NCBI RefSeq assembly: GCF_014202695.1
Contig: NZ_JACHHH010000003.1
Span: 62,001-126,000 of the forward strand
DNA length: 64,000 nucleotides
Direction: 5' to 3'
Source of the DNA: Oribacterium sinus
GTDB lineage: Bacteria; Bacillota; Clostridia; Lachnospirales; Lachnospiraceae
Shown piece by piece: positions 1,414-26,201 of the stretch. The position numbers and the translations under genes were made by a program. How positions within the stretch are numbered: the first letter of the stretch is position 1; each line of letters begins with the position of its first letter. The notes beneath the pieces were generated by a model. It worked only from the letters and a program-made list of their open reading frames with translations, did no database searches and was not told the DNA's origin.

Positions 1414-1546
1414 CTAGCTACCCTTTAGCCACAAGACAATCTGAACCCCTCGGTACTTGACAAAAGCGAGCGAAGCGAAGCTTGCGTTTAGTACCGCTAG
1501 CCGGGCGAAGTTAGCGGGAGCGTGCCTTGTGGTTAGGGGGTGCTAG
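1414..1546 (+). repeat. Hairpin-forming intergenic element, copy 1 (near complete)
   Basis: A 133-bp element with complementary outer arms (1414-1435 and 1526-1546, ending in CCACAAG/CTTGTGG). The core has the family's conserved segments: AATCTGAACCCC, a GGTAC/GTACC stem (1452-1456 with 1491-1495), a CGCTA/TAGCG stem (1495-1499 with 1512-1516), then GGGAGCGTGCC. It is related to the copies at 5502, 22270, 24538 and 25960. No protein frame is plausible. Function is unknown; it could be a structured RNA, a MITE-like element or a terminator-like structure. Confidence 0.7.
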
Positions 1547-1578
1547 AGCTCCGAAGCCTCGCATATAAAAAGTGCCCT

Positions 1579-1623
1579 TGCGTTTAGTACCACTAGTCGT
1601 GGCGAACTTAGAAGGAGCGTGCC
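1579..1623 (+). repeat. Hairpin-forming intergenic element, 3' half only
   Basis: A 45-bp piece beginning TTGCGTTTAGTACC and ending GGAGCGTGCC matches the second half of the element at 1414-1546, with several changes. The 5' half is missing, so this looks like a decayed or partial copy. Confidence 0.5.
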
Positions 1624-1716
1624 TTTGTGAAAGGGAATAGACAGTCCCCCGAAGCTCCACATATATACAGTCCCCCTTGCTATTACCCATCCATAAAGTT
1701 GTTTAAAAAAGATTGA

Positions 1717-1758
1717 ACCGCCCTACAGCCTTGATTTACAAGGTATAGAGCGGTTTTT
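1717..1758. terminator. Hairpin downstream of the short rpn copy
   Basis: An imperfect stem-loop with ACCGC/GCGGT ends and an inner CCTTG/CAAGG pairing. It is flanked by T-rich sequence on both strands (GCGGTTTTTAT on plus; CAATCTTTTTT on minus). It lies 3' of the rpn fragment ending at 1803, and a near-identical hairpin occurs at 4098-4142. Probably a factor-independent terminator copied with the rpn unit. Confidence 0.5.
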
Positions 1759-1802
1759 ATAAACACGTTTTGTTCTATAAACCTATATTTTTTACTCTCA
1801 TT

Positions 1803-2171
1803 TTAAAGCCCGAACTCCTTCAGAAGCTTTTCCCGATATGCTTCATCAAAAGAAACTCTTTTAAGGTCATCCATCCGCCCTGCATTCAGTAAACGACCTA
1901 CTAAAAGAGCAAGACGATTTTGACCTTGTTGCATACCTTGTTCTATACCTTTCTCCATACCTTCCTCTACTGCTTTTTTTCTATACTTTTCTAATAAAAC
2001 ATTCATCTTCTTTTCTCCTTCCCGATCTAGTTTACCTTCCTTTAATGAGGCTACTCTATGAGACAAAACTTTAGACTTAATTTCCTTAGGATTGGCTTCT
2101 TTAAGATCTTTAGCCAGCTTTCCTAATGCATTATCAACTTGCCTTGCTATATCGAAATAAAGGAAACTCAA
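1803..2171 (-). CDS. C-terminal-only Rpn fragment (122 aa), possible RpnS-like protein
   Basis: The frame corresponds to about residue 180 to the end of the full-length Rpn proteins. It lacks the D...E-x-Q nuclease core and keeps the helical, E-K-G-repeat C-terminus. The longest frame opens at a TTG (2171) behind a weak AGGTG. A better internal start is the ATG at 2006, preceded by AAGGAG and giving 67 aa. Upstream is the 3' flank of another rpn copy, so the fragment probably arose by recombination within the array. It could be a free-standing antitoxin-like partner of the full nucleases (compare intragenic RpnS proteins described for E. coli Rpn) or simply a pseudogene. Confidence 0.5.
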   Translation of the reverse strand: MSFLYFDIARQVDNALGKLAKDLKEANPKEIKSKVLSHRVASLKEGKLDREGEKKMNVLLEKYRKKAVEEGMEKGIEQGMQQGQNRLALLVGRLLNAGRMDDLKRVSFDEAYREKLLKEFGL

Positions 2172-2214
2172 AAAACACCTATGTTTTTTGAGAATAAATT
2201 AATGAGATGGTATT

Positions 2215-2595
2215 TTAAAGCCCGAACTCTTTCAAAAGCTTTTCCCGATATTCTTCATCAAAAGAAACTCTTTTAAGGTCATCCATCCGTCCTGCATTCA
2301 GTAACTGACCTACTAAAAGAGCAAGACGATTTTGACCTTGGTGCATACCTTTCTCTATACCTTTCTCTATACCTTTTTCTATACCTTCCTCTACCGCTTT
2401 TTTTCTATACTTCTCCAATAAGACATTCATCTTCTTTTCTCCTTCCCGATCTAGTTTACCTTCCTTTAATGAGGCTACTCTATGAGACAAAACTTCTGAC
2501 TGAATTTCTTTGGGATCGGCTTCTTTAAAGTCTTTAGCCAGCTTTCCTAATGCGTTGTCATCTTGCCTTGACGTATTGAAATAAAGGAAACTCAA
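2215..2595 (-). CDS. C-terminal-only Rpn fragment (126 aa), second copy
   Basis: A sister of the fragment at 1803-2171 with the same 5' junction (MSFLYF...), again without the nuclease core. It has four E-K-G-I type repeats where the sister has fewer. The TTG at 2595 has a weak AGGTA ahead of it; the internal ATG at 2430, with AAGGAG upstream, would make a 71-aa protein. A CTCAAAAAACA/TGTTTTTTGAG-type hairpin lies between this gene and each neighbouring fragment. The reading frame is intact, which argues mildly for use and not decay. Function is inferred only by homology to the C-terminus of full-length Rpn. Confidence 0.5.
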   Translation of the reverse strand: MSFLYFNTSRQDDNALGKLAKDFKEADPKEIQSEVLSHRVASLKEGKLDREGEKKMNVLLEKYRKKAVEEGIEKGIEKGIEKGMHQGQNRLALLVGQLLNAGRMDDLKRVSFDEEYREKLLKEFGL

Positions 2596-2637
2596 AAAAT
2601 ACCTATGTTTTTGAGAATAAATTAATGAGAAGGTATT

Positions 2638-3576
2638 TTAAAGCCTGAACTCCTTCAGAAGCTTTTCCCGGTAATCTTCATCGTAAGAAACTCTCTTAAG
2701 ATCATCCATCCGTCCTGCTTCCAGAAGTCGACCAATCAAAAGCGCCAAATGATTCTTTCCCTGTTCAAGACCTTGTTGTATACCTTGTTCTATACCTTTC
2801 TCTATACCTTTTTCTATACCCTTCTCTATACCTTCCTCTACTGCTTTCTTTCTATACTTCTCTAATAAGACATTCATCTTCTTTTCTCCTTCCCGATCTA
2901 ATTTTCCTTCCTTTAATGAGGCTACTCTGTGAGACAAAACTTCAGACTGAATTTCTTTGGGATTGGCTTCTTTAAAATCCCTAGCCAATTTTCCTAATGT
3001 ATTATCACTTTGTATTGCCGTATTGAAATAAAGGATATGGGAACCATCCTGAAATAAGCTACCGGACTTTCTAATTACTCTTTCAATCCGGTACAACTGT
3101 TCCCCTTCACCTAATACATCTTTATCTGTAATAAATATAACATAGCTCTCCGGTAATTTGGAAAACTTTTCTCCCTTCTTAAGAGTATGTGTGTCCATAA
3201 GAGCAGCATGATAACGAGCCCTTTTAGGAATTGCTCCGGCAGATGAATTTTGCACTTCAATGTTATAAAGTAAGCCTTTATCATCCGTACATAAGCAATC
3301 TAATACCAGTGCTCTTCCATGCAGATTTGGCAGCCTCTTTTGAAGCCTTTGTTCCTTTAACTTTAAGGAAGATTTATCCAAAATCGTTTGCAGAATATAC
3401 TCCGTGCAAGCCTGTTCTTCCAGAACTACTTGCATAAAGAGGTCATCCATCAAAGTTAGAGATGCTATGATTTTTTTCTTTTCCAGAGCATCCATCTTTC
3501 TTCTTGTTCTCTTAGAATTAGCTTTTAAACGACCGGATTTTTTTACCTTAGCATCAGTAGAGTTTGTTTTTTTCAT
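2638..3576 (-). CDS. Rpn family recombination-promoting nuclease / PD-(D/E)XK putative transposase, copy 2
   Basis: A 312-aa full-length Rpn-family protein. The LVLDCL aspartate (D93) and NIEVQ (E107, Q109) of the PD-(D/E)XK core are present, and the C-terminal repeat region is shorter than in the copy at 88-1050. The ATG at 3576 follows CAGGTGACTT, the same leader as in the other full copies. An internal AAGGAG and in-frame ATG at 2877 would start a 79-aa C-terminal product. The last codons lie next to the fragments at 2215 and 1803, so one transcript could carry all three. Function is as for copy 1. Confidence 0.85.
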   Translation of the reverse strand: MKKTNSTDAKVKKSGRLKANSKRTRRKMDALEKKKIIASLTLMDDLFMQVVLEEQACTEYILQTILDKSSLKLKEQRLQKRLPNLHGRALVLDCLCTDDKGLLYNIEVQNSSAGAIPKRARYHAALMDTHTLKKGEKFSKLPESYVIFITDKDVLGEGEQLYRIERVIRKSGSLFQDGSHILYFNTAIQSDNTLGKLARDFKEANPKEIQSEVLSHRVASLKEGKLDREGEKKMNVLLEKYRKKAVEEGIEKGIEKGIEKGIEQGIQQGLEQGKNHLALLIGRLLEAGRMDDLKRVSYDEDYREKLLKEFRL

Positions 3577-3718
3577 AAGTCACCTGCAGAAAATTGAAAT
3601 AATAGAATTGAATAACGAGGAAAACTACAATTTGTAGAATAAAGAAATGAAAGTAGAGAAGTAGATTCTGTAATTTAGATATAGACTGTTCAACAATTTA
3701 TGTATTGCACTGATTCAT

Positions 3719-3807
3719 ATTTTACTACAAGCAGAGGACTTCTCCTATACTCCACATTCGGATAATATCCGTATATTGATAATATAAAAGGATAGTTGAT
3801 GAAATAG
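3719..3807. repeat. rpn-upstream conserved block, copy 2
   Basis: Matches the block at 1190-1280, including CGGATAATATCCG at 3759-3771 and the TCTCCTATACTCCACA string. The surrounding gap (3577-4253) has no credible gene. Weak frames near 3690-3911 repeat the frame near 1217-1414 only because the DNA is repeated. Confidence 0.7.
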
Positions 3808-3978
3808 CACAGCCCATCCTTCCAATGCCTATCACCACTCTTTGGCATCTTCGATAGCTTAGGAGCACTGCCTATTCTCACCATTTGACATATCCTAAAA
3901 CATAGGAGCACTGCATATCCACATCTTCGCCTATATCGAGAACTAAGGAGCTCCAGCCCCCTATATATGCAATTCTCT

Positions 3979-4023
3979 TGAGTTTGGTAACGCTAGCCGG
4001 GGGAAGCTTAGCGGGAGCGTGCC
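3979..4023 (+). repeat. Hairpin-forming intergenic element, 3' half only
   Basis: Begins TTGAGTTTGGTAACGCTAG and ends GCGGGAGCGTGCC, matching the second half of the element at 1414-1546. The CGCTA/TAGCG stem is kept and the 5' half is absent. Confidence 0.5.
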
Positions 4024-4097
4024 TTAATGATAGTGGGCAGTTAGTACTCCAGAGCTTTATAATTCTTCCATCCTCAAAGTTCTTTTGAATAAAATTG

Positions 4098-4142
4098 AAC
4101 CGCCCTACAGCCTTGATTTACAAGAGTATAGAGCGGTTTTTA
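4098..4142. terminator. Hairpin upstream of the 3'-flank of rpn copy 3
   Basis: Second copy of the ACCGC...GCGGT hairpin seen at 1717-1758, with the same inner CCTTG/CAAG pairing and a T-run on the plus strand. It lies 3' of the rpn gene ending at 4254. Confidence 0.5.
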
Positions 4143-4253
4143 TCAACACATTTTGTTCTATATACCTATATTTCTACTAGTGGAGGAATCTCCTATACTC
4201 CACACAAAGAACAGTACTGATGTTTTTTGACACTAAATTAATGAGAAGGTATT

Positions 4254-5204
4254 TTAAAGCCCGAACTCCTTCAGAAGCTTTTCTCGGTAATCTTCATCGT
4301 AAGAAACTCTCTTAAGATCATCCATCCGTCCTGCTTCCAGAAGTCGACCAATCAAATTTGCCAAATGATTCTTTCCCTGTTCAAGACCTTGCTGTATACC
4401 TTGTTCTATACCTTTCTCTATGCCTTTTTCTATACCTTTCTCTATGCCTTTTTCTATACCCTCCTCTACTGCTTTCTTTCTATACTTCTCTAATAAGACA
4501 TTCATCTTCTGTTCTCCTTCCCTATCTATTTTACCTTCCTTTAATGAGGCTACTCTATGAGACAAAACTTCTGACTGAATTTCTTTGGGATTGGCTTCTT
4601 TAAAATCCCTAGCCAGTTTCCCCAATGCATTGTCATCTTGTCTTGCTGTGTTGAAATATAGGATATGGGAACCATCCCGAAACAAGCTTCCGGACTTTCT
4701 GATAACTCTTTCGATCTGGTAGAGTTGTTCTCCCTCTCCCAATACATCTTTATCTGTAATAAATATAACATAGCTCTCCGGTAATTTGGAAAACTTTTCT
4801 CCCTTCTTAAGGCTATGCATGTCCATAAGAGCGGCATGATAACGCGCCCTTTTAGGAATTGCTCCGGCAGATGAATTCTGTACTTCAATGTTATAAAGTA
4901 AGCCCTTATCATCCATACATAAGCAATCTAATACCAGTGCTCTTCCATGCAGATTTGGCAACCTCTTTTGAAGTCTTTGTTCCTTTAATTTTAAGGAAGA
5001 TTTGTCCAGAATCGTTTGCAGAATGTACTCCGTGCAAGCCTGTTCTTCCAGAACCACTTCCATAAAGAGGTCATCCATCAAAGTAAGAGATTCGATAATC
5101 TTTTTCTTTTCCAAAGCATTTATCTTTCTTCTTTTTCTCTTAGAATTAGCTTTTAAACGACTAGATTTTTTCATCTTAGCATTAGTAGAATTTGTTTTTT
5201 TCAT
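4254..5204 (-). CDS. Rpn family recombination-promoting nuclease / PD-(D/E)XK putative transposase, copy 3
   Basis: A 316-aa full-length Rpn-family protein, very close to the 2638-3576 copy, with the same D93 and E107-x-Q109 core. Its C-terminal repeat tract has one more E-K-G-I unit than copy 2, a 12-bp length difference. The ATG at 5204 sits behind the shared CAGGTGACTT leader. The internal AAGGAG...ATG at 4505 would give an 83-aa C-terminal protein. A run of plus-strand frame opposite the repeat tract (about 4358-4603) is an antisense shadow of the low-complexity repeats. Confidence 0.85.
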   Translation of the reverse strand: MKKTNSTNAKMKKSSRLKANSKRKRRKINALEKKKIIESLTLMDDLFMEVVLEEQACTEYILQTILDKSSLKLKEQRLQKRLPNLHGRALVLDCLCMDDKGLLYNIEVQNSSAGAIPKRARYHAALMDMHSLKKGEKFSKLPESYVIFITDKDVLGEGEQLYQIERVIRKSGSLFRDGSHILYFNTARQDDNALGKLARDFKEANPKEIQSEVLSHRVASLKEGKIDREGEQKMNVLLEKYRKKAVEEGIEKGIEKGIEKGIEKGIEQGIQQGLEQGKNHLANLIGRLLEAGRMDDLKRVSYDEDYREKLLKEFGL

Positions 5205-5346
5205 AAGTCACCTGTAGGAAATTGAAATAATAGAAATGAATAATAAGTAAATTAAGATTTTTTGAATAGATAAATGAAAAATTATAGAGAATAAAGCTTA
5301 GATTAAAATTTAGAATGTATGAAGGCACTTGTATTCTATCGCTTAT

Positions 5347-5438
5347 TATCTTACTACCAGATTGATAAATCTCCTATACTCCACATCCGGATAATATCCG
5401 TATGTTGATAATATAATCGTGTAGTCAAAGAAATAGCG
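5347..5438. repeat. rpn-upstream conserved block, copy 3
   Basis: Third copy of the block at 1190 and 3719, with CGGATAATATCCG at 5388-5400. It lies about 140 bp upstream of the 4254-5204 rpn gene. The rest of the 5205-5705 gap holds the hairpin element at 5502-5626 and a terminator. Confidence 0.65.
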
Positions 5439-5501
5439 CTACACAAACTCCCCAAACCTATCCTTACCTACACTTATATCCGAGTACTAAGGAGCACTGC
5501 C

Positions 5502-5626
5502 TATTTCCTAGCCACAAGGCAATCTGAACCCCTCGGTACTTAACAAAAGCGAGCAAAGCGAAGCTTGCGTTTAGTACCGCTAGTCGGGGCGAACTTAGCG
5601 AGACTGTACCTTGGGACTAGGAGATA
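5502..5626 (+). repeat. Hairpin-forming intergenic element, copy 3 (near complete)
   Basis: Outer arms 5502-5519 and 5609-5626 pair (CCTAGCCACAAGG with CCTTGGGACTAGG, a few mismatches). The core is very close to the copy at 1414-1546: AATCTGAACCCC, a GGTAC/GTACC stem, a GCTAG...TTAGC stem and a slightly changed final segment (ACTGTACC for GCGTGCC). No protein frame. Function unknown. Confidence 0.65.
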
Positions 5627-5662
5627 CGCAATGCTCTGAAGATTTAAGCCGTATTTTTAGAT

Positions 5663-5694
5663 AAAAAAAGAACCCCGGAGGGGGTTCTTTTTTT
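5663..5694 (-). terminator. Rho-independent terminator of the cell-wall-binding protein gene
   Basis: A perfect 14-bp stem (AAAAAAAGAACCCC / GGGGTTCTTTTTTT) with a 4-base loop, 12 bp past the stop codon at 5706. The A and T tracts on either side make it bidirectional. Confidence 0.9.
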
Positions 5695-5705
5695 ATAAAC
5701 ACAAA

Positions 5706-7271
5706 TTACTCTGTGTAGTAATTCTTACCATTGTAAGAATATACAAAATTCGGGTGATCATTATTCTGAACTGTGTAAAGCTTCTTGTATCCAGAATAAA
5801 GAACCTTTCCGTCTTTATCAGTGGAATAGTAAGCATCATTGCTATCCTTCAAGTTAACCTTACCAGTCTGAACAGTTCCTGCTGTATTAACTAATACATA
5901 ATCGTTGTTAGCAAAGGAAACACTTCCATCAAAGTAAACAACACCATTATTGTCACCTAACTTCTTTACATTTGCACTATCAACCTTAATTACGCCATAG
6001 TTAGAATCATCGTTGTTAGCCTTAAGAATAATACCCTTATTAGCATACTTCTTAATCTTAGATACATAGTTGTTTGCAGCCTCACCGCTGTTGTTGAAGT
6101 ACATCTCGTATGTATCATCATCAAAGTCTACCTTCTGGTATCCGGTCTTTCTGGAACCGTCCTTCTCACCATCACCGGAGAAGTAGTAAATCTTTGTGCT
6201 AGCAGCAACTTGCTTTAAGAATACATCTCCTGTAAGATCCTGGAAATCATCATCACCAATTCCGGAAGCATTGGTAAATTCATTACGTCCATTATAAGAA
6301 GTTGCAAGTCCAGAAATCATACGACCATACTTATCGAAAGCATATACCTTGCCCTTAATCTTCTTAAGCTTATCAGTAACTACTTTTCCGCTATTATCTG
6401 CATACCACCAAGAAGCGGAATCATTCTCAAAATCCTTTGGTAAATAGCTCTCTGCAGGAACAGCCCAAATCCACTGATTCTTTCTAGCTCCACCGTCACC
6501 ATTTACATAAACAACGCTATCGGATGTAGTTGGCTTAGCATTGAAATAGCTTCCGGAAGCCTTGGTTGCTGTGGACCAATCCTCAATCATACGACCCTTC
6601 TCATCGAAGTAGTAGGTCTGTCCGTTGATAGTCTTCTTCTTATCACGGGAAACCTTACCGTTGTCATCGAAATAGAACCAAGCAGTGCTGTCCTCACCAT
6701 TGTCATTTACAGTTAACTGTACCCAACCGTGCTGAGCGGAACCGTCATCAAATCCACCGTAGTAATACTTAGCAGTAGTCCAAGCATCATCGCCAGTCAC
6801 AAGAGCGGAATCCTCACCTAACCAGCCGTAAAGCATCTTACCTTCCTGATCGAAGAGGTACTTCTTGCCGTTGATGGTCTTGATATCAGAAACAGTGAGC
6901 TTGTCATTCTTGTCTCTGTAAGCCTTACCGGTAGAATCGAAGTACATCCATCTCTTATCGTTTCCGTCCTCTGTGGACTCGTCGAAGGATACCCACTGGT
7001 TAGTAACCATAGCGCCATCGCCGTTTACGAAATAGTAATCATCGTTGTTCTGAACAACTTCGTTCTTAGCCATGTTTCCATCGGATCCAAGGTAGAACCA
7101 GTAGTCTCCGGACTTTCTCCAAGCATCTGTAACAGCATTGCCATCATTGTCAAGGTACTGCCACTCACCTGTGGAATTGTTCCAGCCTGCAGCAAAAGTT
7201 ACTGCAGAAGCTCCAATAGCAAGTAAAGCTGTTGCAGATAAAGCTGCAACCAATTTTGTTTGCTTTCTCAT
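5706..7271 (-). CDS. Secreted cell-wall-binding repeat protein
   Basis: A 521-aa secreted protein. The ATG at 7271 opens a signal peptide (MRKQTKLVAALSA, hydrophobic core, then VTFAAGW as probable cleavage zone). An ATG 24 bp upstream is unlikely because the AAGGAG lies inside it. The mature part is a chain of aromatic/glycine-rich choline- or glucan-binding type repeats (WQYLDNDGNAVTD, WFYLGSDGNMAKNE, YYFDEKGRMI, VYAFDKYGRMIS). Such repeats bind teichoic-acid choline or surface glucans. No catalytic domain is evident; the last 150 residues are divergent repeats ending in YYTE. It is a single-gene unit with its own promoter and terminator. Probably an abundant surface or matrix protein; the ligand cannot be told from sequence. 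Confidence 0.85.
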   Translation of the reverse strand: MRKQTKLVAALSATALLAIGASAVTFAAGWNNSTGEWQYLDNDGNAVTDAWRKSGDYWFYLGSDGNMAKNEVVQNNDDYYFVNGDGAMVTNQWVSFDESTEDGNDKRWMYFDSTGKAYRDKNDKLTVSDIKTINGKKYLFDQEGKMLYGWLGEDSALVTGDDAWTTAKYYYGGFDDGSAQHGWVQLTVNDNGEDSTAWFYFDDNGKVSRDKKKTINGQTYYFDEKGRMIEDWSTATKASGSYFNAKPTTSDSVVYVNGDGGARKNQWIWAVPAESYLPKDFENDSASWWYADNSGKVVTDKLKKIKGKVYAFDKYGRMISGLATSYNGRNEFTNASGIGDDDFQDLTGDVFLKQVAASTKIYYFSGDGEKDGSRKTGYQKVDFDDDTYEMYFNNSGEAANNYVSKIKKYANKGIILKANNDDSNYGVIKVDSANVKKLGDNNGVVYFDGSVSFANNDYVLVNTAGTVQTGKVNLKDSNDAYYSTDKDGKVLYSGYKKLYTVQNNDHPNFVYSYNGKNYYTE

Positions 7272-7326
7272 AATTAATGCACTCTCCTTTTTCATTCATG
7301 GAAATAATAATCCAAGTTGCGTGACG

Positions 7327-7355
7327 ATTATAACCCTTAATTCTCTTCCATTCAA
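7327..7355 (-). promoter_or_regulatory. Sigma-A type promoter of the cell-wall-binding protein gene
   Basis: On the minus strand TTGAAT (7350-7355), a 17-bp spacer and TATAAT (7327-7332) lie about 55 bp before the start codon. Nothing else was recognised in the remainder of the 7272-7602 gap. Confidence 0.75.
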
Positions 7356-7602
7356 GAGTTTTTCTAAAGAAATTCTAATTTTTCTTTATTTTTAGGGCTC
7401 GCCCCGTTACCTGTCCCACTATAAACTATGTTTTCCTCCTTGTCTATTACAAAGGAAAAACAAATGCTTACGAAGTTCTTAAGCTAATTCTTAATACTTT
7501 CCTAATCAATTCTTTTGTTTTATAGCCGTATGTCCCTGTTGTTATGGGATTTTCCAGAACACTATTTGTAGCGAATCATCACAACGGAGTTCTATAGCTT
7601 TT

Positions 7603-8622
7603 CTACTCCCCCAGCTTAACCAGTCTCTTTTCTTCAAAGGATTTCTTCATGGCAAAGCAGATTTCTGTTGCCTTGGTTCCGTCATATACGGAAAGCTTCG
7701 GCTTCTTCTTTTCGATAATGCACTGAATAAATTCCTGCATTTCCAAAAGGTACGCCTCATCAAACCTTTCCGGGAAGCTTTCTACGCACTCTTGGCGTAC
7801 TCCGTAACGGTCATAGAGGATGGCAAGATTCTTCTCCGGCACAGGACTGATTCTGATGCTGCCTTCCGTTCCCACGATTTCTGTTTCAATATGATAACCA
7901 TGAGCTGCGGTTCTTCCTACATGAAGCTCCGCAATTCCTCCATTTTCCAGCTGGAACAACGCTGCGCCGGTTTCTGTATCGTTACAGGATAAAAATTCCG
8001 GATGCTTAAAATTTGCTCCCAGAGCATATACTTCCTTGACTTCACTTCCTAAGAACCATCGAATCAGATCCACATCATGGCTTGCCATGTCAATAAAAAG
8101 GCCTCCGCTGGTTGGGGCAAACTTGATAGCACCCTCTACAGCCGCCTCCGGATCGATTCCTGTTGCCTTTACCATATAGGGAGTTCCGATTGCACCCTCT
8201 TCAATCTTTTTCTTCGCGTAACTGTAGGATGGATCAAAACGGCGCATAAATCCCAAGAAGAATACCTGGTCGGGATGAGCCTCCACTGCCTTCTCCGCCT
8301 TCTTACATTCTTCCACATCTACTCCAAGAGGTTTTTCCGTAAAGACATGGAGGCCTTTCGCTAGAGCCTTTTCAATCTGATCACAGTGACAGGGGCTGGA
8401 GCTTACGATAGCTACTGCATCTAAATCTGCCTTGTCCAGCATCTCTTCATAAGAAGTAAAAGTTTCTGAAACCTTCAGTTCTTCCTTTGCGTACTGTAAT
8501 TCCGCTTCCATAATGGAGCAGGCAGCCACCAGCTTTGCTCCGGGAATTTTAAAGGCAATGTTTCTTGCGTGTACCTTTCCTAAGCGTCCCAGTCCTACGA
8601 TGCCCACTTTAATCTCGCTCAT
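7603..8622 (-). CDS. Gfo/Idh/MocA family oxidoreductase (second inositol dehydrogenase paralog)
   Basis: A 339-aa NAD(P)-dependent sugar dehydrogenase. It has an N-terminal Rossmann motif (VGIVGLGRLGKVHARN, from residue 6), the family EKP signature (FTEKPLG, about residue 95) with the catalytic lysine, and a C-terminal alpha/beta domain containing DMASHDVDLIRW. It resembles inositol or scyllo-inositol dehydrogenases and is a paralog of the enzyme at 12692. It lies at the 3' end of the inositol locus, beyond a strong hairpin terminator after the permease, so it may be expressed at a different level. AGGAGA lies 6 bp before the ATG. Likely role: oxidation of an inositol stereoisomer (scyllo- or D-chiro-) to an inosose; exact substrate unknown. 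Confidence 0.8.
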   Translation of the reverse strand: MSEIKVGIVGLGRLGKVHARNIAFKIPGAKLVAACSIMEAELQYAKEELKVSETFTSYEEMLDKADLDAVAIVSSSPCHCDQIEKALAKGLHVFTEKPLGVDVEECKKAEKAVEAHPDQVFFLGFMRRFDPSYSYAKKKIEEGAIGTPYMVKATGIDPEAAVEGAIKFAPTSGGLFIDMASHDVDLIRWFLGSEVKEVYALGANFKHPEFLSCNDTETGAALFQLENGGIAELHVGRTAAHGYHIETEIVGTEGSIRISPVPEKNLAILYDRYGVRQECVESFPERFDEAYLLEMQEFIQCIIEKKKPKLSVYDGTKATEICFAMKKSFEEKRLVKLGE

Positions 8623-8667
8623 ATTTTTCTCCTATTGTTGTATGTTTTCTATTTTGTATTGTTTCCA

Positions 8668-8737: not shown

Positions 8738-8797
8738 CTTTAGATTCATTTTTCAGCTATTCAATTTTCTATGGAATAGACCTGCTGGAAATTTGTC

Positions 8798-9772: not shown

Positions 9773-9773
9773 C

Positions 9774-18667: not shown

Positions 18668-19510
18668 CTATTCTTTTCCCGCAAACACCAGAATATGGTG
18701 TTGTGCCGTCTTTTCTACTTCCTCAACTGCTCTTTTGCTCATCTTATAGAAGTCTCCCTTGGGATTCTCCTCACAATACTCTTTACAAGCCTTTACCACT
18801 GCCGTAGCCAGAGCTGTTGCAATGTTTATTTTCTGAATGCCCAGGTGGCTGGCTCTTTGGAAGTCCTCATCAGAAATCCCTGAGCCTCCGTGAAGTACTA
18901 AAAATTGTTCCGGCAATGCCTGATGAATTTCTTCTAAAATATCAAACCGAAGCTTCGGTTCCCCGTCATAGTTACCGTGCTTGTTTCCAATGGCAATGGC
19001 TAAAGCTGTAACGCCCGTCTCTTGACAAAATCGAAGGGCATCTTCCTTCTTGGTATAGGCCACGCCGTGATCCACACCGCCGCCTTCTCCCTTTCCCACT
19101 AATCCAAGTTCCGCTTCCACATCCGCATCATACTTTTTCGCCATTTCGATTACTTTTTTGGTATTAGCGATATTTTCCTCTATCGGAAGGAGAGAGCCGT
19201 CATACATGACGGAAGTGAATCCCATCTGAAGAGCCTTCTCAATAGTTTCAAAGGTCAAACCGTGATCCAAAAGCACTGCAATATCAATAGAAGAATTCTT
19301 CGCTGCTGAAAGCATCATGGGTCCCATCAGTTCCAGCGGTGCTGTTCCGAATCTCGCCTCTGCCAGCTGCAAAATCACAGGAATCTTTAGTTCCTCAACA
19401 GCGGCCATAACCCCCATCAGACTTTCCATACTGTAAACACTCAGGGAGGCACAGGCTCTGTTCTCTTTTCTTGCATTTTCCAGCAACTTACTCATCTTTA
19501 CCAGTGGCAT
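18668..19510 (-). CDS. iolJ: 6-Phospho-5-dehydro-2-deoxy-D-gluconate aldolase (class II aldolase)
   Basis: A 280-aa class II, zinc-dependent aldolase of the fructose-bisphosphate aldolase family. Zinc ligands and substrate motifs are visible: VLLDHG (near residue 80), GKGEGGGVDHG, IAIGNKHGNYDG and the HGGSGISDEDFQ phosphate site. In the inositol pathway it cleaves the product of IolC to dihydroxyacetone phosphate and malonate semialdehyde. It is the first gene of the structural operon, behind a strong promoter. AAGGGGG precedes the ATG. The general Fba function is unlikely given its position. Confidence 0.88.
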   Translation of the reverse strand: MPLVKMSKLLENARKENRACASLSVYSMESLMGVMAAVEELKIPVILQLAEARFGTAPLELMGPMMLSAAKNSSIDIAVLLDHGLTFETIEKALQMGFTSVMYDGSLLPIEENIANTKKVIEMAKKYDADVEAELGLVGKGEGGGVDHGVAYTKKEDALRFCQETGVTALAIAIGNKHGNYDGEPKLRFDILEEIHQALPEQFLVLHGGSGISDEDFQRASHLGIQKINIATALATAVVKACKEYCEENPKGDFYKMSKRAVEEVEKTAQHHILVFAGKE

Positions 19511-19558
19511 TTGATTTTCCCCCTTAACTATCTAATACTTTCTCATTAATTACGAAAA

Positions 19559-19587
19559 ATATTATCAATTCATTGCTTTTATGTCAA
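19559..19587 (-). promoter_or_regulatory. Promoter of the iol operon (upstream of iolJ)
   Basis: On the minus strand TTGACA (19582-19587), a 17-bp spacer ending in TGA, and TAATAT (19559-19564). The hexamers are near consensus. It lies about 50 bp before the iolJ start. Confidence 0.8.
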
Positions 19588-19614
19588 TACAATTTGCAAA
19601 TTATGGTTAATTTC

Positions 19615-19630
19615 TACCTATTCATGGGTA
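19615..19630. promoter_or_regulatory. Candidate IolR operator
   Basis: A 16-bp near-palindrome (TACCTATTCATGGGTA, one mismatch) 27 bp upstream of the iol operon -35 box. A related TTTACCCAT half-site and a GGTAAAT half-site flank the promoter in the iolR-iolA intergenic region (20605-20611 and 20663-20671). Assignment to IolR is inference from position. Confidence 0.4.
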
Positions 19631-19691
19631 AGTTTTTGTAAAATTCAACAGATAAGCTTTGGGGATTTCATAAAATTTATAAGTTAACATA

Positions 19692-19749
19692 AAAAGGGAC
19701 TTACTCATCCTGTTTTTTTAAGTAAAAAGCAGAATGAAAAGTCCCTTTT
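19692..19749 (-). terminator. Terminator of iolR
   Basis: AAAAGGGACTT pairs with AAGTCCCTTTT (11 bp), with an inner CATTCTG/CAGGATG pairing, followed by T residues on the minus strand. It lies 15 bp past the iolR stop, separating the regulator from iolJ. Confidence 0.8.
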
Positions 19750-19764
19750 GGATAACGTCTACTA

Positions 19765-20526
19765 TTAATAAAGAAGCTTCACATGATTTTTCCCCAGCAT
19801 CTCCACATAATCCTCCGGTGGACAGGTATCTGTAATCAGACAGTCAAAGTCCTGAAAATCTCCAAAGGTATAAAGAGCCGTTTTCCCGAATTTCGAATGA
19901 TCCACCATCAGATTCTTGATTCTGGAGCGCTCCAAAACCTCTTTTTTAATGTTGTATTCATATGCGGAGGCGTTTGTCATACCCTTCTGCAAAGATACTC
20001 CGGTAGCAGCCATAAAGGCCTGATCGATATTGTAAATCCGAAGCTGTTCCACCGTTTCCAATCCTACAAAGGACATGGTTTCCCGTCTAAGGCTCCCCGG
20101 CAGCATTAGGAGCTGTAGCCCGGGATAATCCTTCGCCATGTAAGCCACTCTCAAGCTGTTGGTGATAATCATGCAGGAAACATGACCAATGTACTTTACC
20201 AGATTCACACAGGAGCTTCCGGTATCGATAAAGATGGTATCTCCCTCCTTCACCAGTTCCCCGGCCGATTTACAAATCTTTTCTTTCTCTTCCTTATGGC
20301 TTATATTTCTTTCGGAAAATGCGGACAGCTCCACCTGTTTCCCGGCATTTTCCTTAGCTTTTACTCCGCCATAAACCTTTTTTATATTTCCTCTTAATAG
20401 TAATTCTTCAATGTCTCTTCGTACTGTATTTTTGGAAATTTGGTATTTTGCGCAAAGTTCGTCTAAGCTGCTGTCCTTCTGCGACAAAATATATTCTTCC
20501 ATATCATCCAAACGTTTATCCCTCAT
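19765..20526 (-). CDS. iolR: DeoR-family transcriptional regulator of inositol catabolism
   Basis: A 253-aa DeoR-type repressor. It has an N-terminal winged helix-turn-helix (SLDELCAKYQISKNTVRRDIEELL, about residues 17-42) and a C-terminal sugar-phosphate-sensing domain with IFIDTGSSCVNLVKY and MLPGSLRRETMSFVG. In Bacillus the equivalent IolR is released by 2-deoxy-5-keto-gluconate-6-phosphate. It is divergent from iolA and immediately upstream of the iol operon, with its own terminator. GGAGG precedes the ATG. Specific effector and operators are inferred from context. Confidence 0.85.
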   Translation of the reverse strand: MRDKRLDDMEEYILSQKDSSLDELCAKYQISKNTVRRDIEELLLRGNIKKVYGGVKAKENAGKQVELSAFSERNISHKEEKEKICKSAGELVKEGDTIFIDTGSSCVNLVKYIGHVSCMIITNSLRVAYMAKDYPGLQLLMLPGSLRRETMSFVGLETVEQLRIYNIDQAFMAATGVSLQKGMTNASAYEYNIKKEVLERSRIKNLMVDHSKFGKTALYTFGDFQDFDCLITDTCPPEDYVEMLGKNHVKLLY

Positions 20527-20624
20527 GCTTTTCCTCCATCTCGACCTTTCTCCTCTTCATTCCCCTTGTTATACATATTCCCTCTTCTCTTTCATTCATT
20601 TTTTGGTAAATTTCAAGTTACTCC

Positions 20625-20652
20625 TTGACATATACCATAGATATGCTAACAT
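20625..20652 (+). promoter_or_regulatory. Probable promoter of iolA
   Basis: TTGACA (20625-20630), a 16-bp spacer and TAACAT (20647-20652); the -10 box is the weaker part. GGTAAAT upstream and ATTTACCC downstream form a widely spaced inverted repeat that could be regulator half-sites. Confidence 0.5.
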
Positions 20653-20703
20653 TATACTCAACATTTACCCATTTTTCAAGAATGTTTACAAAGGAGGAGT
20701 AAC

Positions 20704-22218
20704 ATGGGAGTAAAAAGAATGAACTATTGCATCAACGGTGAGTGGGTTCCCTCTAAGACGGATAAATATATGCCTATTACGGATTCCAGCACCGGCGAAG
20801 TGATTGCTGAGGTACCAAGCTGTACTAAGGAAGAGGTTTTGGCTGCAATTGCCTCTGCCCAGGAAGCTTTTCCTGCTTGGAGCGCATTGTCTATTTCCAA
20901 GAGAACCCAGTATATGTTTACTTGGAGAGATGTTCTGATTAAGCATAAGGAGGAGTTATCTCAGCTTTGTGCCAAGGAGCTTGGAAAGACCATCGGTGAG
21001 GCAAGAGGAGATGTACAGAAGGCTATTGAGCCTACAGAGCTGGCGTGTGCCATTCCTGATCTTCTTCAGGGCGAAACCTCTATGAATGTAACCACCGGAT
21101 ATGACACCGCTACTTACAAAGCACCTCTTGGTGTAGTTGCCGGCATTGTTCCCATGAACTTCCCTGCTATGATTCCTTGGGGTTGGATGGTTCCTGTGGC
21201 TATTGCTACCGGAAATACCGTTGTATTGAAGGCTAACAGCCAGACTCCCCTTACTTCCATGAGAATGTTGGAGCTTTTCTACGAAGAAGCACATTTCCCA
21301 AAGGGTGTTGTAAACCTGGTAACCTGCGGAAGACAAGAAGCGGATATCCTTTTAAAGGATGAGCGTATTAAGGCCGTTACCTTCGTAGGAACCACCAAGG
21401 TTGGTAAGGAAGTATATTCTGTTGCTGCAGCTCACGGAAAGCGTGTTCAGTCTCAGACAGAGGCAAAGAACCATGCTCTTCTCTTAGAGGATGCTGACTT
21501 AGAGAGTGCAACCAATGCAATTGTCAACTCTACCTACGGATGTGCGGGAATGCGTTGTATGGCTCTTCCTGTAATTGTAGTTCAGGATAGCATTGCCGAT
21601 AAGTTTGTAGCTCTCTTAAAGCAGAAGGCACAGGCTATGAAGATTGGTGCCGCTTATGATGAGGATACCAAGTTAGGACCTGTTGTTTCCGCAAAGCATA
21701 AGGAAAGCGTATTGAACTGGATTCAGAAGGGTATTGATGAAGGTGCTGAGCTTGTATTGGATGGTAGAGACGTGAAGGTTCCCGGCTTAGAGAACGGATT
21801 CTTCGTTGGACCAACCATCTTCGACCATGTTACTAAGGACATGAGCATCGGTGATTGCGAAATCTTTGGACCGGTTACTTGTATCAAGAGAGTGAAGAAC
21901 TATGAAGAGGGTATCGCTATCATGAATGCAAACCCCTTCGCTAACGGTTCTGCAATCTTCACCCAGAGCGGCTACTATGCAAGACGTTTCGCTATGGAGA
22001 CTGATGGAGGAATGGTAGGAATCAATGTAGGAATTCCTGTTCCAACAGCTTACTTCCCATTCTCCGGAAACAAGGATTCCTTCTTTGGAGACCTTCACGT
22101 TCTTGGAAGAGACGGCGTTCGCTTCTTTACCAGAGCAAAGACTGTAACCACACACTGGTTCGATGAGAAGTCCGCTCACAGAGAAGTAGGAACATGGGAA
22201 GGAAGTACTGATGTTTAA
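20704..22218 (+). CDS. iolA: Methylmalonate/malonate-semialdehyde dehydrogenase (acylating)
   Basis: A 504-aa CoA-acylating aldehyde dehydrogenase converting malonate semialdehyde, the IolJ product, to acetyl-CoA and CO2 with NAD. Typical MmsA features are GVVAGIVPMNFPAMIPWGW near residue 143, the cofactor region FVGTTKVGKEVY, the catalytic cysteine in YGCAGMRCMAL (near residue 283), and NVGIPVPTAYFPFSG toward the end. AAAGGAGG is 6-7 bases before the ATG. It is the only clear plus-strand gene, divergent from iolR, and completes the pathway to central metabolism. Downstream lies the hairpin element at 22270. Confidence 0.93.
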   Translation: MGVKRMNYCINGEWVPSKTDKYMPITDSSTGEVIAEVPSCTKEEVLAAIASAQEAFPAWSALSISKRTQYMFTWRDVLIKHKEELSQLCAKELGKTIGEARGDVQKAIEPTELACAIPDLLQGETSMNVTTGYDTATYKAPLGVVAGIVPMNFPAMIPWGWMVPVAIATGNTVVLKANSQTPLTSMRMLELFYEEAHFPKGVVNLVTCGRQEADILLKDERIKAVTFVGTTKVGKEVYSVAAAHGKRVQSQTEAKNHALLLEDADLESATNAIVNSTYGCAGMRCMALPVIVVQDSIADKFVALLKQKAQAMKIGAAYDEDTKLGPVVSAKHKESVLNWIQKGIDEGAELVLDGRDVKVPGLENGFFVGPTIFDHVTKDMSIGDCEIFGPVTCIKRVKNYEEGIAIMNANPFANGSAIFTQSGYYARRFAMETDGGMVGINVGIPVPTAYFPFSGNKDSFFGDLHVLGRDGVRFFTRAKTVTTHWFDEKSAHREVGTWEGSTDV

Positions 22219-22269
22219 TCCGGATTCGGAATCGGAGATCCTAAAATTGCCTATATAATCTTAAACAGC

Positions 22270-22482
22270 AAAAAGCTTGTATACGATATTAAAAAGGTTT
22301 TCTACGCAGTATAGGTCTGAAAATGGGGCACGCTCTCGCTAGCTTCGCCACGTAAGGGATACTAAGCGAAAAACTTCCTTACAGTCGTTTTTCGCAAGTA
22401 CCCACGGGCTCAGACTACCCCCTTTCAGACCTATACTGCTCGAAAACCATCCTTTTTTAATGTTATGCAAGCTTTTTTTAGT
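22270..22482 (-). repeat. Hairpin-forming intergenic element, copy 4 (complete, long arms)
   Basis: It fills most of the 22219-22549 gap between the convergent ends of iolA and dxs. Read on the minus strand the core is GGGGGTAGTCTGAGCCC, a GGGTAC...GTATCCC stem enclosing GCGAAAAAC/GTTTTTCGC, then TGGCGAAGCTAGCGAG and AGCGTGCCCC. The arms pair over about 50 bp: GCAGTATAGGTCTGAAA is mirrored exactly, and pairing continues into GGTTTTC, TTAAAAA and AAAAAGCTTG segments with small bulges. It could also serve as a bidirectional terminator. Confidence 0.75.
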
Positions 22483-22549
22483 TCTGTTAGAATCTATAGT
22501 CCATAATCATCGGTTTCTTTTGATAATTTATGAGGCAGTGTGGAGAAAT

Positions 22550-24307
22550 TTATAATACTTCTAAAATTCGTTCCACCATGGATTCTCTATCCATATGATA
22601 TTCTTTCATCAAGGCTTCCAAATCATATTCGTCATAGAATTCTTTTTCCAGACCTAAGCTTAGTACCTTCATTGGCTTTAGGCTATAGAAGGAAGCAATT
22701 TTCTCTGCAAAACCTCCGAACAAAATGCCGTCCTCTAAGACTACCACCAACTCATGGTCTTTTTCCAGATTTTCCAGATACACTTTATCCAAATGAGATA
22801 GAATACCGGGGTTAATTAAGCTGGGCTTAATACCGGTCTTTTTCTCAAAGTTTTTCGCCCCTTCTCTCCCTTCTTCATACAAGGAGCCTGTTGCAAAGAT
22901 GGCGACCTTCTGTCCTCTTTGGATTTCCTGATAGGAAACAGGGAAGAAACTCTTCTTTACCGGCGCTTCGTCCTCCAGCACATTTCCTTCCGGTGCAAAA
23001 ATCAGTACCGGATGCTCCTGCTGTTCTAAAGCCCAATCCAGTAAAGAGAAATATTCTCCTTTAAAGGCCGGCGCAAAGATTAAAAGATTCGGGATGGAAT
23101 TGGCCATGGCCAAAAGATACAGTCCAAGGTGGGTTTTGTCCCGCATTCCCAAAATAGAGGCGCTGTTTACTACCATGGTGATGGGAAGGGAATTGATGGC
23201 TGCATCGTGGGAGATCTGATCATAGGCTCTTTGCAGGAAGGTAGCGGATGTGAAAAATACAGGTTTTGCTCTATTTTTTGCGGCACCGCAAGCAAGGGTT
23301 ACTCCTGTCTGCTCCGCAATCCCCACATCTACAAACTGCTTTCCCGCCTCTTTTCTTTGCTTTTCATGAAATCCCATGCCACTGGGCACTCCTGCGGTAA
23401 TGGCCAAAACCGCCGGATCCTTCTTCATTTTCGCCAGCAAAAATTCGGCTGTAAGTTCTCCGATATCCTCCCCGGGAAAATCGTATTCTTCTCTGGTTTT
23501 TCCCGTTTCCAAATGGAAGGGCAGATGCCAGTGCCAGCTTTCCTTATCCTGCTCCGCAAACTTAAGTCCCTTACCCTTTGCGGTATGAATGTGAAGCACC
23601 ACCGGCTTTTTGTAGCTTTTCGCCTTTTCCAAGGCCTTTACCAAAGACTCCACATCATTTCCCTGCTCCTCATAGAGATATTCCAGTCCCATAGCCCGGA
23701 ACAGATTATCCTCTGCCTGACCATTACTTTCCCTAAGGCGCTTCAAGCCCTTATACATGCCTCCGTGATTTTCCGCAATGGACATTTCGTTATCATTTAA
23801 AATGATGAGTAGTTGGCTCTCCTGCTCTCCCGCATTGCTTAATCCTTCCAACGCCATTCCGCCGGAAAGGGAACCGTCTCCAATTACCGCCACCACCTTT
23901 TCCGTTCCGGAAAGTAAGTCTCTGGCTTTGGCAAGTCCCAGTGCCAAGTCAATAGATGTTGAGGTATGTCCGATGGAAAACAAATCATAGGGGCTTTCCT
24001 TAGAGTCGGTATAGGGTCCCACTTCATCATAGGAAGCCTCTTCCATATAAGCCTTTTTTCTACCTGTCAGCATTTTATGGGGATAGGTCTGATGAGAAAC
24101 ATCAAAGACAATCTTATCCTTCGGGGTATCAAAAACTCTGTGCAGAGCAATAGTCGCCTCCACAAAACCTAAGTCCGGTCCCACATGTCCCATGTGTTTA
24201 CTGGCTCTTTTAATCAGAAAATTCCGCATTTCCTCTGCCAGGGTATTCAAGTCTCCCATGGAACACTGCTTCAAATCCTCCGGGCTATTGATTCTTTCTA
24301 AAACCAT
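22550..24307 (-). CDS. dxs: 1-Deoxy-D-xylulose-5-phosphate synthase (short form)
   Basis: A 585-aa transketolase-like thiamine-diphosphate enzyme joining pyruvate and glyceraldehyde-3-phosphate, the entry to the MEP isoprenoid and thiamine/pyridoxal pathways. Visible are VSHQTYPHKMLTGR (near residue 70), the cofactor motif GDGSLSGGMALEGL with LLIILNDNEMSI, a transketolase pyrimidine domain with DVGIAEQTGVTLACG, and a C-terminal transketolase domain. It is about 35 residues shorter than E. coli Dxs, matching a divergent form seen in clostridia. GAGAGG lies upstream of the ATG. It appears to be a single-gene unit between two hairpin elements. Confidence 0.85.
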   Translation of the reverse strand: MVLERINSPEDLKQCSMGDLNTLAEEMRNFLIKRASKHMGHVGPDLGFVEATIALHRVFDTPKDKIVFDVSHQTYPHKMLTGRKKAYMEEASYDEVGPYTDSKESPYDLFSIGHTSTSIDLALGLAKARDLLSGTEKVVAVIGDGSLSGGMALEGLSNAGEQESQLLIILNDNEMSIAENHGGMYKGLKRLRESNGQAEDNLFRAMGLEYLYEEQGNDVESLVKALEKAKSYKKPVVLHIHTAKGKGLKFAEQDKESWHWHLPFHLETGKTREEYDFPGEDIGELTAEFLLAKMKKDPAVLAITAGVPSGMGFHEKQRKEAGKQFVDVGIAEQTGVTLACGAAKNRAKPVFFTSATFLQRAYDQISHDAAINSLPITMVVNSASILGMRDKTHLGLYLLAMANSIPNLLIFAPAFKGEYFSLLDWALEQQEHPVLIFAPEGNVLEDEAPVKKSFFPVSYQEIQRGQKVAIFATGSLYEEGREGAKNFEKKTGIKPSLINPGILSHLDKVYLENLEKDHELVVVLEDGILFGGFAEKIASFYSLKPMKVLSLGLEKEFYDEYDLEALMKEYHMDRESMVERILEVL

Positions 24308-24537
24308 AAAGCCACCTCTCCCTTTCTACTCTCTCCTACTATTTACTCCCTCATACACAATTCCGCGAAACGTCTTATCCTATTACCGTGGAAAATATCC
24401 TTCTGCTCTATACTGTAAAGCCTCTCTATTCTCATGCAGTCTTTCAGCATTGTCAATCGAAAGTCAGCTAAGGCTATATTCCTAATTCTAAATCCACAGC
24501 ACTGCCATAGACTTCAACCATACCACAATTAGACAAC

Positions 24538-24756
24538 TAAAAAAGGAAGTCTGGAATATACAGTCCATGAATAGCTTCGTGCAATATAGCTCTAAAGAGG
24601 GGTAATCTGAACCCGTCTGTACTTACAGAAAACGAATGAAATGAAGCTTGATGTTAGTACAGCTACGAGGTGAAGTTAGCGAGAGCGTGCCCCGCTTTAG
24701 AGCTATATTGCTATAGAAGCGATGATTTCACTGTGATATTTCCTACTTCCTTTTAT
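24538..24756 (+). repeat. Hairpin-forming intergenic element, copy 5 (complete, long arms)
   Basis: In the 24308-24759 gap between dxs and cysK, ending 4 bp from the cysK stop. The inner arms are a perfect 17-bp pair (GCAATATAGCTCTAAAG and its complement), and weaker pairing extends to AAAAGGAAGT/ACTTCCTTTT, about 55-60 bp per arm. Core: GGGGTAATCTGAACCCG, a CTGTAC/GTACAG stem (GGTAC/GTACC in other copies, a compensatory change), GCTA/TAGC, and GAGAGCGTGCCCC. Nothing else was recognised between 24308 and 24537. Confidence 0.75.
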
Positions 24757-24759
24757 CCT

Positions 24760-25698
24760 TTAGGCTTCGTCGGCAAAAAGCGGAGAAGAAAGGTAACGGT
24801 CTCCGGAATCCGGAAGGATGATGACAATGTTCTTTCCCTTTGCCTCAGGGCGCTTTGCAATCTGAATTGCCGCATGTACAGCCGCTCCGGAGGAAATTCC
24901 GGTCAGGACGCCTTCCTCTTTTCCGATACGTCTTCCTGTTGCAAAAGCATCCGCATTGGAAACGGTAATGATTTCATCATAAATCTTCGTGTCTAAAGTG
25001 TCAGGAACAAAACCTGCACCGATTCCCTGAATCTTATGAGGTCCGGGAGCCTTACCGGAAAGTACTGCGGAATCCTCAGGCTCTACTGCAATTACCTTTA
25101 CAGCAGGGTTCTTTTCCTTCAAATATTTGCCAATTCCTGTAATGGTTCCTCCTGTTCCGATTCCGGAAATCAGATAATCCACCTTACCGTCAGTATCCTC
25201 CCAGATTTCCGGGCCTGTGGTTTTCTCATGGGTTTTGGGGTTAGCCTGATTCTCAAACTGACCGGGAATAAAACTGTTGGGAATTTCTTTCGCAAGCTCC
25301 TCTGCCTTGGCAATGGCACCCTTCATTCCCTTAGCACCCTCTGTCAGCACCAACTCTGCGCCATAAGCCTTCATCAGGGTTCTTCTCTCCACACTCATGG
25401 TGTCGGGCATAACAATGATGATTCTGTAGCCTCGGCTTGCCGCCACTAAGGATAAACCGATTCCTGTATTTCCTGAGGTGGGCTCAATAATTACGGAGCC
25501 GGGCTTTAAAAGGCCTCTTTCCTCTGCATCCAAAATCATCCCCTTGGCAATTCTATCCTTTACAGAGCCTGCCGGGTTAAAATATTCCAGCTTCGCCAAA
25601 AGCTTTGCTTCCAAACCATCCTTTTTTTCGATATGGCTAAGCTCCAAAATCGGAGTACGTCCAATCAATTCTTCCGCTGCATGATAAATCTTTCCCAT
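24760..25698 (-). CDS. cysK: Cysteine synthase A (O-acetylserine sulfhydrylase)
   Basis: A 312-aa PLP enzyme making cysteine from O-acetylserine and sulfide. The PLP lysine is K47 in [19 protein letters not shown] (near residue 69) and [11 protein letters not shown] (near residue 176) are the substrate and phosphate loops, and [11 protein letters not shown] is near residue 266. Length is standard. AAGGAGA precedes the ATG. The promoter at 25823-25851 overlaps a perfect palindrome, and an Rrf2-family regulator lies just upstream, so control by sulfur or iron-sulfur status is likely. Confidence 0.95.
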
Positions 25699-25822
25699 AG
25701 CATTCTCCTTTTCTTCTCTGTAAATCTGCTACTCTGTACATTCTTTACTTTGTAAAACTTCTTCTCCAAAAATATGCTTTCCCTAACTAAGATAAAACTT
25801 TGAAACAATTTGTTCATGGAAA

Positions 25823-25868
25823 AGTATAAGTCATATAAACATACTAGTCAAGTATGTTTATATGACTT
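25823..25868 (-). promoter_or_regulatory. cysK promoter overlapped by a perfect 18-bp palindrome
   Basis: On the minus strand TTGACT (25846-25851), a 17-bp spacer and TATACT (25823-25828) form a strong promoter. A perfect inverted repeat covers it: AAGTCATATAAACATACT at 25828-25845 and its complement at 25851-25868, with a 5-base centre (AGTCA) inside the -35 box. The central TACTTGACTAGTA resembles Rrf2/IscR-type operators. Repression by the adjacent Rrf2 protein is inference. Confidence 0.75.
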
Positions 25869-25959
25869 TATCAACTGACAAAATCTTTACTCTATTATAT
25901 AGCTTATGCAGTTTTATAGACTATATTCCCTTCCCGGATTTTGTCAAAAAAGAGCCATC

Positions 25960-26201
25960 AAACAGATGCATTACTTTTTCAAAGCTGTATAGGTCCGAAA
26001 CAGAGGCAATCTCTCACCAATGTAAACAAAAATGCCGTGGAGGGACTTAAGCAGTATAGACCTGAAAAAGGGGTAATCTGAGCCCGTGGGTACTTGTGAA
26101 AAACGAATCCCATGAAGTTTTTCACTTAGTACCCCTACGTGGCGAGGTTAGCGAAAGCGTGCCTCTATTCGGACCTATACAGTTTGAAAAAGACTCTGTT
26201 T
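25960..26201 (+). repeat. Hairpin-forming intergenic element, copy 6 (complete core, compound left arm)
   Basis: Between cysK and the Rrf2 gene. The right arm (26162-26201) pairs with 25960-26006 over CTGTATAGGTCCGAA and on through CTTTTTCAAA to AAACAGA. A second left-arm-like segment (GCAGTATAGACCTGAAAAAG, near 26051) lies directly before the core, so the left side looks like two nested insertions. Core: GGGGTAATCTGAGCCCGT, a GGGTAC/GTACCC stem containing GTGAAAAAC/GTTTTTCAC, TGGCGAGGTTAGCGA, AGCGTGCC. Confidence 0.7.

Follow-up and report, generated by a model that had tools for sequence, protein, structure and literature searches.

The bcr repeats of the Bacillus cereus group are dispersed, intergenic and similar to miniature inverted-repeat transposable elements (MITEs), with about half of all copies transcribed in untranslated regions (UTRs) or operons and with conserved structures in bcr10 and bcr18 (PMC3446304). 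ERIC/IRU/RU-1, Correia/NEMIS and RUP are described as mobile repeats that are small, intergenic and non-coding; their transcripts fold into long stems, and some of them affect mRNA (PMC2229807, PMC2267715). They carry terminal inverted repeats and target duplications (PMC2229807), and ERIC folds as one long stem-loop (PMC2267715). REPINs are hairpin-forming palindromic units with compensatory changes, arranged as inverted doublets (PMC3116915). Here we describe a large family of small non-coding repeats, apparently uncatalogued so far, that lie dispersed in the intergenic regions of many gut and rumen Lachnospiraceae and of which five full copies lie in a 64,000-nt stretch of Oribacterium sinus (contig NZ_JACHHH010000003.1, positions 62,001 to 126,000), the whole of which we call the window. 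Each copy is a palindrome of ~130-300 bp in which two complementary arms close a core of ~85-110 nt, and the core forms, on one strand, a three-way junction with a GNRA tetraloop. We read the element as a non-autonomous mobile palindromic repeat, ERIC- or bcr1-like in kind, with an elaborate structured-RNA core, and give this reading a probability of about 0.6.

Like the bcr repeats and the MITEs of the ERIC, Correia and RUP type, the element is small, non-coding and present in many dispersed intergenic copies. Compared by description with the bcr repeats, it differs in taxon, in having a core fold, a GNRA rule and hairpin modules that are found family-wide, and in its freely varying arms; against ERIC, Correia and RUP, it has a branched core, variable arms and no observed target duplication. 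Because target duplications were looked for and not seen, we do not class it as a MITE; nor do we class it as a REPIN. Its arms are inverted but variable, and recurring ends (GGRCTGTA...TACAGYCC) characterize one host subfamily, in 16 of 57 distinct elements from the host genome (G000) and the same-genus genome G009. With REPINs it shares palindromic hairpin units, compensatory changes and inverted doublets, but REP arms are conserved whereas here the core is conserved and the arms vary, and Y1_Tnp is missing from 4 of 14 copy-rich genomes (13 of which reached the full 16 candidates in the search with model R2 described below, and G117 six). The absence of RVT_1 from 7 of these 14 sets it apart from the group II intron or retron type. 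It resembles HEARO, other Rfam RNAs and candidate RNAs from the human microbiome as a putative structured RNA with covariation, but differs from TnpB/IscB guide RNAs, HEARO included, in having no Rfam match and in the absence of the TnpB zinc ribbon (PF07282) from 7 of the 14, IscB itself lying outside the search. In Rfam 15, no family reached the gathering cut-off, the window giving two tRNAs only, and permissive scans returned only weak, unrelated matches. One survey of the human microbiome reports 3161 candidate RNAs, 250 of them palindromic (PMC8040213), and the element could be an unnamed entry among them. A search of the open literature, by title or abstract, found no description of the repeat family. 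It resembles ERIC, bcr1 and other small dispersed repeats; what sets it apart is that the core is branched and keeps to the GNRA rule, that the arms vary freely and that it ranges across the family, a combination for which we know of no described equal.

The copies in the window are listed below with their scores under a covariance model (R1) that was built from 33 host copies including the five full ones, and which therefore matches these by construction.

1415..1547, + strand: full copy, core and inner arms, with outer arms reaching ~1410-1550 (R1 111 bits; fold z -5.2)
1577..1640, + strand: degenerate 3' half copy, direct repeat family D11 (R1 does not recover it)
3967..4042, + strand: degenerate 3' half copy, D11 (R1 marginal, 16.5 bits, E 0.03)
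5497..5633, + strand: full copy (R1 100 bits; fold z -4.1)
22305..22438, - strand: full copy, outer palindrome ~22270-22482 with the bounds of the earlier sequence-only reading (R1 131 bits; fold z -5.9)
24582..24712, + strand: full copy, outer palindrome ~24538-24756 (R1 136 bits; fold z -7.5; outer arms pair in the L001 fold)
26052..26184, + strand: full copy, outer palindrome ~25960-26201 with the bounds of the earlier sequence-only reading (R1 118 bits; fold z -5.2)

All five full copies are more stable than dinucleotide shuffles (z -4.1 to -7.5; 0/200 shuffles as stable), in part because the copies are long palindromes. A sequence-only reading of the window had proposed these five and two half copies; the five proved real (100-136 bits each), whereas of the half copies, which align to the 3' half of the 5502 copy at 69-73%, the one it placed at 3979 is recovered at a marginal score and the one at 1579 is seen by alignment and missed by R1. 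The paired changes it reported also hold when the copies are read: GGTAC/GTACC becomes CTGTAC/GTACAG in the 24582 copy, GTGAAAAAC/GTTTTTCAC in the 26052 copy corresponds to GCGAAAAAC/GTTTTTCGC in the 22305 copy, and the closing stem is CAAG/CTTG in the 1415 and 5497 copies against GGGG/CCCC. Every window copy is intergenic, between open reading frames (ORFs). By reading, 4/5 full copies lie between two minus-strand ORFs and carry the GNRA loop on the opposite strand, and the fifth (22305) sits between convergent ORFs.

Inside the outer arms, the core consensus is GGYA-(P2)-CGYCGGUACUUA-(P3 tip)-UUAGUAYCGCURCG-(P2)-UAGC-GNRA-GCGUGCC, with these parts:

Stem P1: GGYA...UGCC
P2-P3 arm: CGYCGGUACUUA...UUAGUAYCGCURCG
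P4, a short hairpin with the GNRA loop: AGC-GNRA-GCG

This structure covaries well above its controls. In alignment A3 (71 distinct sequences), which was aligned to the model's structure and so leans towards it, 94.6% of cells pair compared to 66.6% after shuffling, both sides have changed in 784 cells (222 shuffled, standard deviation 13) and at 38 pairs (29.0 shuffled), and the covariation score is 0.578 against 0.144 shuffled and 0.05-0.08 with slid partners. In A2, a MAFFT alignment that itself supplied the structure used, 145 cells have changed on both sides compared to 34 in the control. The loop is GNRA in 183/183 cores, with loop positions 2 and 3 left free, although roughly 100 of the loci behind these cores were fetched with a pattern demanding NRA; in genomes whose loci were retrieved with no constraint on the loop, it is GNRA in 59/59. 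Within P2, UACU/AGUA becomes UGCU/AGCA in G145-like genomes, and one P3 pair alternates between U-A (98) and C-G (79), with five mismatches of the wobble or C-A kind. We also observed two P3-arm-like hairpins in locus L082, directly 3' of a putative transfer-messenger RNA (tmRNA) gene.

If the selected molecule is the strand carrying the GNRA loop, G-U should outnumber A-C at imperfect pairs. In the host core (A2) the counts are 65 GU and 8 AC, and in A3 94 GU and 32 AC; the inner arm columns give GU/AC ratios of 15/10 and 34/9. No strand bias appears in the arms under a lenient alignment, which runs into the flanks (GU/AC 153/155 in the host and 154/160 in others), and 21 arms of recent copies in G071 hold 12 GU and 10 AC. 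From these patterns we infer that constraint acts on the core as RNA, and on the arms mostly as a double-stranded palindrome.

Arm sequences vary from copy to copy and between subfamilies, yet remain complementary. Nine near-identical copies in G202, at nine loci with different flanks, vary at 5 of 85 core columns, and at three adjacent arm positions they vary in such a way that 26 of 27 combinations are Watson-Crick. In the orthologues L108/L160, flanks are 95-96% alike but right arms match at 31/50 positions, both arms having changed; in two of nine orthologous pairs (L097/L132 and L131/L137), core and arms are instead 99-100% alike with flanks at 82-94%. On these comparisons, the two arms can be exchanged together at one locus and kept at another.

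Cores also take up additional modules. A long form in G009 carries an extra domain of ~108 nt with four hairpins, at one place in P2, in 14 of 20 stretches chosen for it; its stems carry matched changes, it includes a conserved GACCAACUUC, and it is found at L199-L213 (G009) and in one host case (L027/L034). This domain could be an RNA module in its own right. Orthologues may differ by entire P3-tip hairpins (L087/L116, L102/L140 and L130/L179), and host copies are nested within the P3 region of other copies, up to several levels by reading (L005, L050, L034, L055 and L060); two 340-nt core splits, in L055 and L060, were considered as autonomous copies and rejected, as they are nested copies. 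Neighbouring copies no more than 1 kb apart, counted over the 136 host copies and 48 of the at least 65 copies in G009, are divergent in 11 cases, tandem in four and convergent in none, and in G071 a divergent pair of two subtypes occurs in 11/11 stretches.

R1 finds at least 136 copies in the host genome at E <= 0.01 (best 150 of 937 candidates scored), and blastn with one copy gives at least 46 matches there (40 of 124 candidates scored). R1 matches 10 of 41 relatives, with at least 65 copies in G009. A second model (R2), of 72 copies from 67 loci in species other than the host, matches 84 of 200 sampled Lachnospiraceae genomes, almost all of different genera (16 candidates scored per genome). 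In a class-wide sample searched with stricter filters and 11 candidates per genome, 9 of 293 genomes were positive, all nine in the host's family. A pattern scan yielded at least 100 stretches, and among the matches listed 67 of 80 contig titles name Lachnospiraceae; others name Pseudobutyrivibrio, Acetatifactor and Lactobacillus rogosae, as well as Mogibacterium and Muribaculaceae, and the last two labels may be real or misbinned. There were no matches in IMG/VR (one pattern), in PLSDB plasmids (one window copy as query) or in phages (one relative's copy as query).

Two sites of L087, from a rumen-type assembly, were compared across seven sister genomes (G515-G521). The first is occupied in G515, is represented in G516 and G521 by a short palindrome lacking the core, and is empty in G517, G519 and G520 and, by match coordinates only, in G518. 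The second is occupied in G515 with quite different arms, shows both arms without a core in G517, one arm in G516 and a remnant in G520, and is empty in G518, G519 and G521. Where arms alone are present, the site may have lost its core, or it may be an acceptor palindrome that no core has yet entered. Copies appear from these comparisons to be gained and lost between genomes.

The contexts fit a mobile element whose insertions are sifted by selection, possibly with some local use. Counting only copies with an ORF on both sides (146 of 163), the host has 7 sense, 13 antisense, 25 convergent and 4 divergent contexts (n = 49), and other species 42, 27, 19 and 9 (n = 97); ten further genomes have 13 sense, 14 antisense, 1 convergent and 3 divergent (n = 31). 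Few copies lie in divergent gaps (4/49 and 9/97); they survive mainly between genes, away from divergent promoters. An orientation preference is seen only in eight rumen-type assemblies (from the 80 stretches listed by the pattern scan, grouped post hoc), with 22 sense, 5 antisense and 1 divergent of 28, and in 17 of the 23 copies of this group that have a co-oriented downstream gene the element ends 48-63 nt before its start. Some copies lie, by reading, exactly between two hairpins resembling intrinsic terminators (L106, L166, L091 and L182). Elements between ORFs read as metK and argF have opposite orientations in different species (L142 compared to L165 and L170), a flip such as recombination between the arms would produce.

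On the mechanism we favour, the core would be made as RNA at some stage and, once folded, would be recognized by a putative trans-acting factor needed for spread; the arms would owe their complementarity mainly to hairpin processes at the DNA level (template switching or inter-arm repair), which would explain why a core can be lost with its arms left behind and why copies occur in either orientation. Where a copy sits inside an operon it is presumably transcribed, and it may have secondary effects on mRNA. Possible, if speculative, is a further step in which the element is a bacterial counterpart of short interspersed elements (SINEs): a selfish RNA whose three-way junction is the substrate of a putative host- or phage-encoded machine that copies it to new intergenic or hairpin sites and builds new palindromic arms at every such event, the RNA also admitting further hairpin modules, and other copies of itself, in its P3 loop. 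Several observations weigh against a mobile repeat with an RNA core. The presence and absence pattern at both L087 sites also fits loss alone. No target duplication was seen by eye in the 16 elements with recognizable ends or at the two sister-compared sites, though short ones could escape notice, and no autonomous ORF-bearing copies were found among isolated half cores in the examined loci. Most of the GU excess in the core is owed to a small number of pairs shared by descent; in P3, one pair (Y-A) is mismatched as C-A in 45 of 183 cores, which speaks against a simple RNA reading. Under a strict alignment the arms have a modest GU excess (GU/AC 18/5 and 48/28), and since this disagrees with the lenient result, the DNA-level claim for the arms is not clean. 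Finally, each family tried as an obligatory partner was rejected for its absence from copy-rich genomes: RVT_1 (missing in 7/14), the TnpB zinc ribbon (7/14, including the host and G009), Y1_Tnp (4/14) and PDDEXK_2 (3/14). No mobilizing gene thus emerged from these four families, DDE transposases and IscB lying outside the search, and no shared neighbour gene among 542 ORFs from 100 stretches, the clusters of which were read by eye as transporters, metabolic or housekeeping genes. None of the four alone is needed now, and a lost mobilizer is possible.

Other explanations account for parts of this evidence. That the element is selected by the host within messages, as an intercistronic or UTR structure that acts in processing, stability, termination or control of translation and is copied only incidentally, would suit the co-orientation (22/28) and the 48-63-nt spacing (17/23) in the rumen group and the two of nine orthologous pairs that hold core and arms above their flanks; we nevertheless find it doubtful, given that no orientation preference exists elsewhere, that the downstream genes in the rumen group look unrelated in their translations, by reading, and that sites are empty in sister genomes. 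The constraint on one strand is compatible with single-stranded DNA (ssDNA) too, and an element of the HUH kind, REPIN- or IS200-like, in which the same strand is recognized as folded DNA, would agree with the missing target duplications and with the inverted pairs, which recall REPIN doublets (PMC3116915). It is nonetheless unlikely: Y1_Tnp is absent from those four copy-rich genomes, arms are not conserved as REPs are, the loop is GNRA and not any GNNA, and there is no obvious strand bias on the G009 chromosome (by eye, origin position not located).

A conventional MITE, on whose ends a DDE transposase acts to move it and whose core is conserved only through recent common descent, could claim the recurring GGRCTGTA...TACAGYCC ends and the recent near-identical copies, but covariation in the core spans genera, arms differ between subfamilies and the 16 elements show no duplication by eye, which makes this quite improbable. 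Least probable is a pure DNA process, in which replication template switching makes and corrects palindromes with neither RNA nor transposition; it accommodates the matched changes in both arms of near-identical copies and the joint replacement of the L108/L160 arms, but does not explain why unpaired bases of the core are conserved, why the loop follows the GNRA rule, why wobble in the core is biased or how copies reach new loci.

The sequence-only reading had left a choice between a structured RNA and a fold-back mobile element, and both halves are supported at once. For the RNA half there are the core covariation, above shuffled and slid controls, the purine at the third loop base in 183/183 and 59/59 cores and the wobble asymmetry; for the mobile half, the near-identical copies at nine loci of one genome and the empty and arms-only sites, which indicate that copies are mobile, or at least gained and lost. 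The checks it had suggested turned out in its favour, with many more copies in the host genome and empty versions of occupied sites in sister genomes, and its statement that no named family matches holds, since no Rfam family, HEARO included, reached the cut-off. What it could not reach is how widely the element occurs in the family, that arms and core behave differently, that hairpin modules have been inserted, and that copies form divergent pairs and nest within one another.

Several further features were observed in the window and the collected loci. Positions 88-5204 of the window hold a tandem cluster of Rpn/PDDEXK_2-like genes, with PF12784 matches at 496-840, 3025-3366 and 4650-4994 (coordinate shift) and further such fragments through repeats D1-D4; the cluster is duplicated along with downstream cassettes bearing the elements at 1415, 1577, 3967 and 5497. 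Another repeated hairpin, whose arms read AACCGCYCT...AGRGCGGTT and which carries a T run, occurs at 1702-1790 and 4084-4173, with similar ones in L005 and L056; it is probably a terminator family and is present too in spacers between paired elements. A 300-nt direct repeat, 83% alike (55943-56242 and 58291-58590), with a 50-nt inverted repeat (TGTAGCGAGAAGG hairpins), adjoins two 283-aa ORFs, and tandem arrays of 22-nt and 24-nt units lie at 45046-45287 and 33996-34139. In L175, a repeating VLEPSGFTLLSN reading frame at 1130-2895 looks like a CRISPR array read as protein.

If our reading is correct, an RNA-structured repeat without an Rfam match would be present in about four in ten genera of a very common gut and rumen family, with more than 100 copies in at least one genome. 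It would offer a clean system for asking whether bacterial repeats spread via folded RNA, and a handle both on how palindrome arms change in step and on how repeats affect operons and rearrangements in Lachnospiraceae. Annotators could then mask or name thousands of intergenic copies.

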